A stretch of 34,142 nt of DNA from assembly GCA_030655775.1 (NCBI GenBank), contig JAUSPI010000246.1:1-34142 (forward strand), given 5' to 3'. A program made the position numbers and the translations under genes. The notes below the pieces were generated by a model. It ran no database searches, was not told the origin of the DNA, and saw only the letters and a program-made list of their open reading frames with translations. The stretch is from Syntrophales bacterium. GTDB lineage: Bacteria; Desulfobacterota; Syntrophia; Syntrophales; JADFWA01. This document shows, in pieces, positions 4,345-33,735 of this stretch. Positions within the stretch are counted from its first letter, which is position 1, and the number at the start of each line of letters is the position of its first letter.

Positions 4345-5922
4345 TTACTCTGGCATAATATCGTGCTTCTTATACGGCAACTTCGTGTCCTTATTCTTGA
4401 ACAGCTTAAGTGCCCTGCATATTAACGGTCTTGTTTGTACAGGATCTATAACCGTATCCAGATTCAGATTGGCTGCTGGTGCCGTGGGTACCAGGAAGCG
4501 GTTTACGTACTCTTTGACTAACTCCTCTCGCTTTGCAGCGGGATCTTCCGCCTCTTTTATCGCTGTACGCTCGATAATACCTACTGCGCCCGATGGCCCC
4601 ATAACCGCCATCTCGCAAGGGGGCCATACCATAACTATATCTGCACCGACGTCCTTGGAGCACATGCCCAGGTAAGAACCTCCGTATGCCTTTCGTATAA
4701 CGACAGTTATTTCAGGTACGGTTGCTTCGGAATAGGCATAGAGCATTTTTGCACCATGCCTTATTATACCATTCCACTCTTGATCCGTTCCCGGAAGATA
4801 TCCTGGGACATCAACAAGATTGAGTATAGGTATATTATAGGCATCGCAAAATCTGATAAATCTGGAGCCCTTATCGGAACAGTCGACATCAAGGCAGCCC
4901 GCCATAACCATAGGATTCTGTGCCAGTATACCTACAGTGTTTCCATCCATTCTGGCTAAAGCACATATCATATTTCTGGCATACTTTTCCTGCCACTCCA
5001 TAAAGTCCCCGTTGTCTACTACTTCGCCCATCAGTTTTTTCATGTTGAAGGGACGTGTCGCTTTGTCGGGTACTATTGTCGCCAGCGCCTCTGATGTCCT
5101 GTCCGCAGGATCACCCGTTTCAACATACGGCGGTTTTTCCTTGGCGCTACCCGGGAGGAAGCTGAGAAACCTTTTTATCTGTTCGATACAGTCATCTTCG
5201 CTCTTAGTCAAGAATGTACCGACCCCGCTTTTTCCGCAGTGAACGGCCGCGCCACCGATATCTTCATCTCCGACTTCTTCGCCGGTAACCTTCGTTATCG
5301 TTGATGGGTCATTGGCATACATCTTGGTTATTTTATCCACGGTGAACACACAGTCTGCGAGTCCCGGGACAATTGTCATTCCACCCGAGCATGTTCCCAT
5401 GACAGCACAGATCTGAGGAATGGCTCCTGAATAGATGGTCATGTTATACGCCAGATCACCAAGACCGGCCAGCGAATCGGGCCCTTCCTTTATCCTCAAT
5501 CCCTCTGAGTCGACAACATAGAGCATAGGACAGCCAACATTGTTAGCCTCCTGGAGAACTCTGACTATCTTGGCAGCGTGTATTATTCCAAGTGTTCCAC
5601 CCATGACTGTAGCATCCTGGAAGGCACCGTAAACAATTTTACCATCGATAGTCCCGTATCCTGTTACTACGCCATCCGCGGGTAGGTCCTCCTTGAATAT
5701 ATCATAATGCGGTGTTACCGACCGGCAGAATTCCCCGATTTCTAAAAAGGACCCGGGGTCAAACAATTTTTCTACCCTTTCCCTTGCTGTATACTTTCCC
5801 ATGTCATGTTGGAGCTTTACTGCCTCTGCTCCGCCCATTTCATAGATTCTTGCCTGCTCACTTTTCAAAAAACCAGACTTTTCTACTGTTGACATCTCTG
5901 CGAACGTTTTTTCACTAACCAT
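4345..5922 (-). CDS. Biotin-dependent acyl-CoA carboxyltransferase, paralog B
   Basis: PccB/MmdA/12S-type carboxyltransferase (two crotonase-like halves), expected to move CO2 between biotin and propionyl/methylmalonyl-CoA. The C-terminal half is canonical: VDVPGYLPGTDQE (370-382), YAYSEATVPEIT, and RKAYGGSY (410-417). The N-terminal half keeps FQDATVMGG (101-109) but the usual SGGARIQEG loop reads SEGLRIKEG (139-147), replacing the first oxyanion-hole glycine by Glu140. I start at the ATG at 5922 (525 residues) because GGAGG lies nine bases upstream; an in-frame TTG at 5931 would directly abut that GGAGG. It is 32 bp downstream of paralog A and they share a terminator. No biotinyl domain or biotin carboxylase is encoded nearby. 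Confidence 0.9.
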   Translation of the reverse strand: MVSEKTFAEMSTVEKSGFLKSEQARIYEMGGAEAVKLQHDMGKYTARERVEKLFDPGSFLEIGEFCRSVTPHYDIFKEDLPADGVVTGYGTIDGKIVYGAFQDATVMGGTLGIIHAAKIVRVLQEANNVGCPMLYVVDSEGLRIKEGPDSLAGLGDLAYNMTIYSGAIPQICAVMGTCSGGMTIVPGLADCVFTVDKITKMYANDPSTITKVTGEEVGDEDIGGAAVHCGKSGVGTFLTKSEDDCIEQIKRFLSFLPGSAKEKPPYVETGDPADRTSEALATIVPDKATRPFNMKKLMGEVVDNGDFMEWQEKYARNMICALARMDGNTVGILAQNPMVMAGCLDVDCSDKGSRFIRFCDAYNIPILNLVDVPGYLPGTDQEWNGIIRHGAKMLYAYSEATVPEITVVIRKAYGGSYLGMCSKDVGADIVMVWPPCEMAVMGPSGAVGIIERTAIKEAEDPAAKREELVKEYVNRFLVPTAPAANLNLDTVIDPVQTRPLICRALKLFKNKDTKLPYKKHDIMPE

Positions 5923-24088: not shown

Positions 24089-24202
24089 CAGCTCTTCTCA
24101 TTTCTTCATTTCCCGAAGTATAATAAATGTGTAAACAATTCTCAATCTCTTTTCCCCCACTTAAACAATTTATATCCACTTTTCTATGCGCCTTTGCGTG
24201 AC

Positions 24203-24235
24203 CGTCTCCTGCCTCCCGTCTCCTGCCTCCTGCCC
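24203..24235. repeat. Heptanucleotide repeat tract 1
   Basis: Consecutive 7-mers CGTCTCC, TGCCTCC, CGTCTCC, TGCCTCC and TGCCCC run up to the stop codon of the sugar transferase. It is preceded by GCGCCTTTGCGTGA, a motif also found near 29815 and 31530. See the similar tracts at 24809, 25541, 32297, 32363 and 33398. Confidence 0.85.
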
Positions 24236-25494: not shown

Positions 25495-25540
25495 CGGGCC
25501 TCAAGGTCTTCAAACCTACCAACCTTTTCTTCCATTTCTT

Positions 25541-25660
25541 ATCTCCTGCCTCTTGCTTTTCCGTCTCCTGTTTTCTGTTTTTTCTGTTTCCGTTCTCCCG
25601 CCTTCGGTCTCCGTTCCCCCATTTCTTATCTCCTGCCTCCGTTTTCCTATTCTTACCTTT
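25541..25660. repeat. Pyrimidine-rich heptamer tract 3
   Basis: About 120 bases of degenerate 7-mers such as CTCCTGC, CTCTTGC, TCTCCTG, TGCCTCC and GTTTTCC. No credible gene; minus-strand reading gives low-complexity K/E/R/G-rich peptide. It fills the interval between the four-helix-bundle relic and the ATPase. Confidence 0.75.
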
Positions 25661-27738: not shown

Positions 27739-27771
27739 TCGCGAAACGAGGACTATTTTTATCCGAGCAGG
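27739..27771. repeat. Dispersed 33-bp repeat, copy 1
   Basis: TCGCGAAACGAGGACTATTT (first 20 bases) recurs with three changes at 32166-32198, where it lies inside the epimerase coding region. It is followed by a GC-rich CCCGCC...GGCGGG foldback. Confidence 0.8.
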
Positions 27772-29995: not shown

Positions 29996-30025
29996 CCGGG
30001 GTAGCTCCAGCAGATGGTACTGGGG
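29996..30025. repeat. GTAG...GTAC palindromic repeat, copy 3
   Basis: CCGGGGTAGCTCCAGCAGAT followed by GGTACTGGGG, only 11 bp from copy 2. Confidence 0.8.
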
Positions 30026-30080
30026 TAATCTGCTGATATATGTTCTTTCCCGCCATTCACAATCTGCGTTAATCCGCGAA

Positions 30081-31400: not shown

Positions 31401-31502
31401 TTATGTGTTGACCGCCTTGAGCGCCTCATACTGTGCAGCGCGGATACGCTGTTTGATCTCACCCAGCAAAGCTGGGTAGTTAGTTGGCAAATTAGTTGTC
31501 AT
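31401..31502 (-). pseudogene. DUF1016 (YhcG-type nuclease) N-terminal fragment
   Basis: A 33-residue open frame MTTNLPTNYPALLGEIKQRI followed by RAAQYEALKAVNT. The LLxEIKxRIxxAQYEALKAVN pattern is the start of DUF1016/PDDEXK nuclease family proteins, which are normally more than 300 residues long. It ends in the 21-bp palindrome, suggesting that the rest was removed or replaced by the repeat. Confidence 0.65.
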
Positions 31503-31521: not shown

Positions 31522-32772
31522 TTATCTTTGCGCCTTTGCGCCTTTGCGTGAGACATCTTTTTCCGCGTAATCTGCGGACTGATACCAATCAACAGTTTCC
31601 TGAATACCCTGCTCAAAGGTGTATGGGGCCTGCCAATCTAAAAGTTCACGTATTTTACTGGAATCAACACACAAAGAACCTGTCAAACGATCAATTTCAG
31701 CCCTTTTCCCTGTCAACAAGCCCAATGCTTTGAGCATAACCAAAGGAACGGGCAAAAGGGTTGCCTTGCGGCCCATGGCAGAGGCCATTTTTTGTACCAA
31801 TTCAGCAGTAGAGACATCCTCTCCATCACTGATTAGAAACGTTTCGCCTGCTGCTCTGCGGTGCTCCAAACAGGTCATGATGGCGCTTACGAGATTGCCA
31901 AGGTAAACCATACTGCGACGATTACGCACAAGTCCCAAAGGCAAAGGAATGCCCTTGTGGATCAGTTTCAATAGACGCAAAAAATTTGCTTTTACTCCAG
32001 GCCCATAAACCAAAGGCGGTCTCAAAACAACCACCTCCAAACCAGTATCAGCCGCAATATCACGTAAAATCTGCTCTGCTTCCCATTTGGAAACAGCATA
32101 CGGATCCCGCGGCTCAGGAACATCCATTTCGGTGTAAGGATCAGAGCTGTCTTCAGCCTTTTCTTTCGCGAAGCGATGACTATTTTTGTCCGAGCAGGTC
32201 GCTCGGACAAATGTCTGTGTCAGTCTGTGTGGGTCTGCCTGCCCTGTAGCTCCGGCAGATGGTACCGGGGTGGCTAATTCTTCATCTTTTTCATTCGACG
32301 TTGGGCGTTCGATGTTCGATGTTGGACGTTCATCCCTTTTCCTTCCGATCTCTGTCTTTTCCTGACCACTGACCACTGACCACTGACCACTGTACCTCGT
32401 CCTTTCCCCATTAACCTTCACCGAGCTTATATAAACAAAACGTTTAACGCTGGCATTCGCAGCCGCAATCGCAAGGCATTTAGTCCCCTCAACATTAACT
32501 TCCCTGAACGCGGCAAGCGGATCAGCAGCGCTCTCGCACATAACATGCACCCGGGCTGCAAGATGCACAATGCCCTCAATACCGTCCAGCGCTTCAGACC
32601 AATCAGTCTCCGGGCCAATATCCCCGATCATCGCCCCTTCAACACCTGAAGGCAAAGCCGTCATTTGATCCGCGCGCCTGACAGCTCCCCGCACCTGGTA
32701 TCCAGCCGCCATCAGTCTTTTGCATAAGGCCTGTCCGATAAATCCGTTAGCACCTGTTATTAAAATATTCAT
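31522..32772 (-). CDS. NAD-dependent sugar epimerase with an in-frame repeat insertion
   Basis: Extended SDR of the UDP-glucose/UDP-GlcNAc 4-epimerase-like group, 416 residues. TGANGFIG (6-13) binds NAD; the catalytic YAVSK is at 225-229; VVLRPPLVYGPGVKANFL and DGEDVSTAEL are typical. Residues 126-207 (about 82) are not from the enzyme: they are encoded by repeats (32152-32397) and separate VKVNGERT from DPYTEMDVPEPRDPYAVSKW, which are normally close. Without them the protein would have the usual length. The last ten residues (VSRKGAKAQR) come from a TTTGCGCC repeat. Frame is kept. Substrate unknown; it may modify the lipid-linked sugar made by the sugar transferase. Confidence 0.88.
   Translation of the reverse strand: MNILITGANGFIGQALCKRLMAAGYQVRGAVRRADQMTALPSGVEGAMIGDIGPETDWSEALDGIEGIVHLAARVHVMCESAADPLAAFREVNVEGTKCLAIAAANASVKRFVYISSVKVNGERTRYSGQWSVVSGQEKTEIGRKRDERPTSNIERPTSNEKDEELATPVPSAGATGQADPHRLTQTFVRATCSDKNSHRFAKEKAEDSSDPYTEMDVPEPRDPYAVSKWEAEQILRDIAADTGLEVVVLRPPLVYGPGVKANFLRLLKLIHKGIPLPLGLVRNRRSMVYLGNLVSAIMTCLEHRRAAGETFLISDGEDVSTAELVQKMASAMGRKATLLPVPLVMLKALGLLTGKRAEIDRLTGSLCVDSSKIRELLDWQAPYTFEQGIQETVDWYQSADYAEKDVSRKGAKAQR
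31527..31551. repeat. TTTGCGCC octamer repeat
   Basis: TTTGCGCC, TTTGCGCC, TTTGCGTGAG. Related stretches at 24187-24201 and 29810-29832. It encodes the last residues of the epimerase. Confidence 0.85.
32152..32397. repeat. 246-bp repeat mosaic inserted in the epimerase gene
   Basis: Contents from low to high coordinate: the 33-bp dispersed repeat copy 2 (32166-32198), the GTAG...GTAC palindrome copy 4 (32242-32270, ending GTACCGGGG), five GAYGTTS heptamers (32297-32331), and four TGACCAC heptamers (32363-32390). The total is divisible by three and contains no stop in the epimerase frame. Boundaries are inferred from where enzyme homology stops and resumes. Confidence 0.8.
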
Positions 32773-33374: not shown

Positions 33375-33735
33375 TTAGGTCAACAAATCTCCTGTTTCCG
33401 GGCCAATATCACCGACCTCCGCCCTTAGTCCTCCGACATCTGACCTCAGACATCCGACTGCTGTCTTTTCCTGCCTCCTGCCCTCTACCTTCTGTTTCTT
33501 TTGTTTTTCATTCGACGTTGGACGTTCGATGTTCGATGTTGGACGTTTATCCCTTTTCCCTCCGACATCTTTCCTCTGACTTCTGTCCTTTCCCGACATC
33601 TGACCTCAGACATCCGACTTCTGTCTTTTCCTGCCTCCTGACAGCTCCCCACACCTGGTACCCGTCAGCCATCAGCCTCTTGCATAAAGCCTGGCCGATA
33701 AAGCCGTTTGCGCCTGTTATAAAGATATTTTTCAT
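33375..33735 (-). pseudogene. Truncated second copy of the epimerase, split by repeats
   Basis: The start MKNIFITGANGFIGQALCKR, then LMADGYQVWGAVR, is nearly identical to the intact epimerase. It then enters heptamer repeat sequence. After about 250 bases the enzyme sequence resumes as GDIGPETGDLLT and a stop at 33375, matching GDIGPETDW of the intact gene. The remaining ~280 codons are missing. So this copy suffered a repeat insertion at a different position (after GAVR) and loss of its 3' part. Confidence 0.85.
33398..33642. repeat. Heptamer repeat tract in the epimerase relic
   Basis: Contains five GAYGTTK units at 33514-33548 in the same order as in the intact epimerase (GACGTTG, GACGTTC, GATGTTC, GATGTTG, GACGTTT), flanked on both sides by a recurring run of CATCTGA, CCTCAGA, CATCCGA, CT(T/G)CTGT, CTTTTCC, TGCCTCC (near 33437 and 33596). 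Confidence 0.85.

Follow-up and report, generated by a model that had tools for sequence, protein, structure and literature searches.

A NAD-dependent epimerase/dehydratase gene from a Syntrophales bacterium carries an in-frame insert composed of dispersed repeats, and related genes of other Desulfobacterota are filled at the same codon with repeats of different content and length. The gene lies in a stretch of 34,142 nucleotides, which we call the window. We consider it probable that heptanucleotide-type arrays occupy a permissive loop of this epimerase and become a disordered linker on translation, with in-frame versions surviving.

Under this explanation, repeat arrays that are degenerate, mostly heptanucleotide and scattered through this Desulfobacterota genome and those of its relatives would enter a surface loop in which the extended-SDR sugar epimerase tolerates them, and translation would turn them into a disordered linker. 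Array content and length would turn over between lineages, with growth presumably occurring by slippage and by copying or recombination between repeats. In the complete gene, only in-frame, stop-free versions would survive, and out-of-frame versions appear to be confined to truncated duplicates.

The epimerase gene and the composition of its insert

The gene (31522..32772, minus strand) is an open reading frame of 416 amino acids plus a stop codon. Membership in the extended SDR family (PF01370) is indicated by the Rossmann motif TGANGFIG (consensus TGxxGxxG), an active-site Ser/Thr (Ser116/117) and Y225xxxK229 (consensus YxxxK) in an alignment, and by a profile search of the ORF, in which Pfam Epimerase (PF01370) matches in two stretches that flank the insert on both sides. 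The remainder of the enzyme is therefore intact, as had been proposed from the sequence. The best Foldseek matches of the epimerase model are UDP-hexose(uronate) 4-epimerases, of which UDP-glucuronate and UDP-glucose 4-epimerases are nearest. Because every NCBIfam match to a named equivalog (GalE, HpnA, RmlB and others) scores far below the curated cut-off, we assign no substrate name. Codons 1-125 (32398..32772, minus strand) encode the NAD-binding half. The C-terminal tail SADYAEKDVSRKGAKAQR (31525..31578, minus strand), which had previously been missed, also has a repeat-derived look and overlaps the D10 and D11 families.

The insert corresponds to residues 126-210 (32143..32397, minus strand) and is bounded by VKVNGERT and DPYTEMD. 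It consists of 85 codons including DSS; without DSS, it is the 82-codon insertion at 32152-32397 that was originally predicted to be repeats kept in frame, and it is indeed stop-free in the epimerase frame. It is open in that frame only, with stops in the two other sense frames and in all three antisense frames. When dinucleotides were shuffled, 297 of 5000 sequences (6%) were open in one given frame, a figure that precedes the one-in-three chance of the right length.

In sense order, the insert contains four blocks, all on the minus strand. These are a heptamer array, (GTCAGTG)n, that encodes SGQWSVVSGQ (32361..32392; D2 family), a ERPTSNIERPTSNE block with heptamer-like GTTCGAT/GTTGGAC units (32287..32356), a 36-bp repeat encoding ATPVPSAGATGQA (32236..32271) and a repeat (32166..32211) with an 11-bp hairpin, whose arms are 32185-32195 and 32201-32211. 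The assignment of the insert to four repeat families holds, since each family has copies in the window and three (all but the hairpin block) are also matched elsewhere in the genome, on contigs C195, C101, C44, C67, C240 and C87. Specifically, the ERPTSNIERPTSNE block has copies on C195 and at 33504-33573 of the window (91%; 62 bp at 95% over 33504-33565), the 36-bp repeat has copies on C101 (97%) and C44 (89%) and at 30001-30026 (26 bp at 92%), and the hairpin block has a copy at 27739-27771 (33 bp at 91%).

Taken alone, the window insert is weakly 7-periodic (lag-7 match 0.37), because two of the four blocks are not heptameric. Its predicted RNA fold (z = -0.99) shows no significant overall structure and a single local 11-bp hairpin. 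A known structured RNA was rejected on the basis of an Rfam search of the window, which gave no match. Pfam searches detected no domain of its own within the insert, and the peptide SVVSGQ gave no match when the literature was searched.

Inserts in relatives, predicted structure and selection

In our alignment, the stretch from VKVNGE to PxDPYxxSK comprises 12-17 residues in approximately 40 homologs, versus 97 residues in the window gene. A longer stretch is present in only a few Desulfobacterota genes and is always at the same codon, namely in the window and at loci L027 (Desulfobacterales), L028 (Desulfobacteraceae), L029 (Ca. Desulfaltia bathyphila), L145 and L148. The inserts at the latter five loci are in frame and differ in content and length (48-258 nt). 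The differing inserts of relatives at this codon were not part of the original prediction, and an insert unique to the window gene is rejected because relatives are filled at the same site. The L027 insert shares two repeat families with the window insert, in the same order; it has 54 bp in common with the ERPTSNIERPTSNE block (96%) and also contains the 36-bp repeat.

These observations bear on an unlikely alternative, in which no dispersed repeats were inserted and the arrays instead grew in place, as replication slipped at a heptamer-like seed within the gene. Such an origin would account for the 7-nt periodicity of the inserts, host codons such as GTCAGG and GGAAAGGACA do resemble the heptamer, and polymerase slippage has been connected with heptamer excess in bacteria (as discussed in PMC4692102). 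However, the four families combined in the window insert are unrelated and have copies of 90-97% elsewhere, and two of them recur in the same order in L027; slippage alone cannot supply the 36-bp, hairpin or ERPTSN blocks.

In an AlphaFold2 model (21 sequences), the epimerase core has pLDDT values mostly above 90, and residues 130-207 have values below 50. In this model, the insert follows the strand at 111-115, which leads up to the active-site serine, and precedes the helix starting at 224 that carries Tyr225 of YxxxK. The model and the alignment thus agree with the earlier placement of the insert in a loop before the catalytic Tyr, and the insert is predicted to be a disordered loop on an intact epimerase core. 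Among insert-bearing genes, dN/dS is 0.11-0.21 in the N-terminal part, which indicates purifying selection. All complete genes with an insert at this site are open through it, although this frame maintenance is partly a matter of ascertainment, given that complete genes were recognized by both halves in one continuous frame. Truncated copies, by comparison, are frameshifted or terminated by stops. Complete genes have thus kept the frame and dead copies have lost it, in accord with the expectation that selection maintained it. The insert-bearing protein is presumably made and active.

It had been suggested that the loop could tolerate or exploit the insert. Tolerance is well supported, and we found no positive evidence for benefit. 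A selected, variable loop that modulates substrate access, oligomerization or partners, with repeats as its raw material, seems to us quite improbable, even though several lineages and a second SDR have the same loop filled, and loops in both halves of GET3 are filled in three genomes (see below). Neither the sequence nor the length of the insert is conserved, most homologs do without it, and it is predicted to be disordered. Moreover, similar arrays occur between genes and at C termini, as tolerated insertion would give.

It is in our view very improbable that the frame is open by chance in a pseudogene undergoing decay or in a chimerically assembled gene. The metagenome-assembled genome does comprise 276 contigs, and truncated repeat-filled copies are nearby, but the same site is filled in independently assembled genomes (L027, L028, L029, L145 and L148), the C-terminal half is intact with conserved motifs, dN/dS is low, and an open, in-frame insert would arise by chance in roughly one-third of 6% of cases. 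Removal of the segment after transcription or translation (intron, intein or bypassing), which an in-frame insertion near the active site might bring to mind, is hardly credible for an insert composed of dispersed repeats that has neither an Rfam match nor its own Pfam domain nor a notable RNA fold.

An apparently mosaic gene and its truncated copies

DNA identity among the window gene, L027, L028 and L029 is high from approximately -40 to approximately +690, and then falls to the level seen with any homolog. This segment covers approximately 40 bp of upstream sequence and the codons up to approximately 236, including the insert; similarity to the other insert-bearing genes reaches background just 3' of the post-insert segment with YxxxK (32065..32151, minus strand), which would place the breakpoint of the mosaic there. 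For the insert-bearing genes, dS is 0.45-1.0 in the N-terminal part and saturated or nearly so in the C-terminal part. Because the 5' half and insert are shared across classes at this dS, whereas the 3' half is saturated, the gene appears to be a mosaic.

Phylogenetic trees are consistent with this conclusion. The window gene, L027, L028 and L029 form one clade in the N-part tree (support 86, which is not conclusive) and are scattered in the C-part tree. For the C-part, the AU test rejects a single clade of the four insert genes (p=6.6e-6), as well as a clade of window, L027 and L028 alone (p=0.0085). The C-part groupings are not rejected when the N-part proteins are considered by themselves (p 0.41-0.57), and the case for a mosaic therefore depends on DNA divergence and on the test of the C-part.

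The window is unlikely to be a contaminating contig of the G510 family (f70), because its methylmalonyl-CoA mutase finds its nearest relatives within its own order (57-58%, vs 48-49% to f70 genomes). Given this affiliation, the shared epimerase 5' segment points to transfer between classes. Judging by dS and the trees, the 5' half with its repeats has probably been exchanged between lineages, perhaps through flanking repeats that mediated the exchange. The association of repeat arrays with a mosaic gene whose 5' half is common across classes adds to the interest of these elements.

A fragment of 33 amino acids, MTTNLPTNYPALLGEIKQRIRAAQYEALKAVN, is located downstream of the epimerase (31404-31502, minus strand) and has a counterpart in L027 (approximately 4355-4580). 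The fragment DNA is 96-98% identical between the window and L027, despite the diverged epimerase C-terminal halves between. A Pfam search of the fragment gave no match; we presume that it resembles the start of a DUF1016-type nuclease.

The epimerase 5' end is present a second time in the window, as a truncated copy (33383..33735, minus strand) that was not noted earlier and has repeats at approximately codon 34. Nested in this copy is an insertion of 160 bp, and a direct duplication of 48 bp flanks the insertion; 160 is not a multiple of three, and the frame of the copy is lost. Truncated copies in genomes G224, G797 and G699 reach stops in or after repeats. Such 5' copies are scattered over several genomes (L092-L095, L144, L149 and L153-L155), and in some of them the ATG is closely preceded by a AATCTGTGGA-type repeat or, at a distance of 15-20 bp, by AATCTGCGTAATCTGTGGAT repeats. 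A second in-frame repeat site is present at codons ~34-50 in Ca. Desulfaltia bathyphila (AEKTEIGYLRSDVGGLRAEVGDIG; L029 3001-4077 and L049/L153), in the same place as the repeats of the truncated copy in the window.

Repeat arrays in other genes and known systems

Comparable inserts are found in other enzymes. A different SDR (L151) has an in-frame repeat insert at the same structural place as that of the epimerase. Tandem GET3/ArsA ATPases in genomes G000, G627 and G224 carry in-frame repeats in the homologous loop of both halves, and these differ per genome (L008/L156 on G000 C240, L157, L158, L159 and L160); the G224 loops also hold several KSPLEGGLRGV-type repeats. In a second GET3 subfamily, an orthologous loop is filled in G699 and empty in G000 (C195). 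With filled and empty versions of one loop in orthologs, tolerance versus benefit becomes directly testable. In a hybrid histidine kinase, one loop of the ATPase domain contains a short array. Across 15 in-frame inserts from four enzyme families, the 7-nt period typical of heptanucleotide tandem repeats (STRR-like) is evident, with a match of 0.53 at lag 7 and 0.50 at lag 14, versus 0.23-0.30 at other lags.

Our census consists of pattern searches and the loci that they returned. The bacterium's own genome has 102 matches to a GTCAGNG x3 pattern (GTCAGNGGTCAGNGGTCAG, at most 3 mismatches) versus 2 for the reversed control, and a further count gave 14 versus 0, so that the arrays are dispersed genome-wide, as STRR-like repeats are. 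Of 297 genomes sampled from the phylum, 28 contain the GTCAGTG form. Other arrays are between genes or form C-terminal tails. Heptamer C-terminal ends were seen in proteins that, by inspection, are PyrF-, CDC48-, FolC- and GvpL/F-DnaJ-like (L097, L117, L125 and L003). Within the window, further heptamer-type arrays (TCTCCTGCCTCC) are located between genes (24169-24224 and 25527-25648), near a bacterial sugar transferase gene.

Since relatives carry different repeats at the same site and an unrelated enzyme behaves alike, repeat DNA has probably been turned into protein time and again in these bacteria. More tentatively, heptanucleotide arrays could continually supply core enzymes (epimerases, GET3/ArsA and histidine kinase) with disordered loops that are in frame and vary in length, and the same repeats could be junctions at which the epimerase 5' half is swapped between lineages, which would yield mosaic enzymes and leave truncated 5' copies behind.

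Heptanucleotide repeats of bacteria include TAACTGA in Beggiatoaceae (PMC4679880) and GGGAATC-type repeats in Xanthomonas and Nostoc (PMC4692102). TAACTGA arrays are largely intergenic, with ORF cases mainly at protein ends or in hypothetical proteins (PMC4679880), and the elements of G. metallireducens were reported within genes too (PMC2700814). Our arrays resemble these and cyanobacterial STRR repeats in having dispersed 7-nt units that are mostly intergenic and overlap few ORFs. However, their unit sequences (GTCAGTG, GTCAGAG, GCGGATT and GTTCGAT) differ from the known ones and, unlike TAACTGA, they lie inside conserved enzymes, in a homologous loop, in several genera. Enterobacterial ERIC/RU elements are in-frame MITEs with terminal inverted repeats and mostly with target-site duplications (PMC2229807, PMC2759123). 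They too are small repeats fused in frame to genes. At the epimerase insert we saw no terminal inverted repeats and no evident target-site duplication, but a 48-bp direct duplication does flank the nested insertion in the truncated copy.

Partial coverage of the literature turned up no earlier description of heptamer arrays that recur in frame in homologous internal loops, whereas in-frame intragenic repeats as such are already known from Rickettsia palindromic elements (RPEs; Ogata 2000). RPEs are dispersed palindromic elements of 105-146 bp with terminal inverted repeats that lie in frame in conserved genes and are read as peptide, including a translated, active case in gmk reported in review (PMC2229807, PMC10969869). 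Like an RPE, the epimerase insert is dispersed repeat DNA in frame in a conserved gene. It was rejected as an RPE because it has no terminal inverted repeats or long stem-loop, only the one 11-bp hairpin. Unlike RPEs, it is a composite of mostly heptanucleotide arrays, and the same loop has been refilled with different repeats across lineages.
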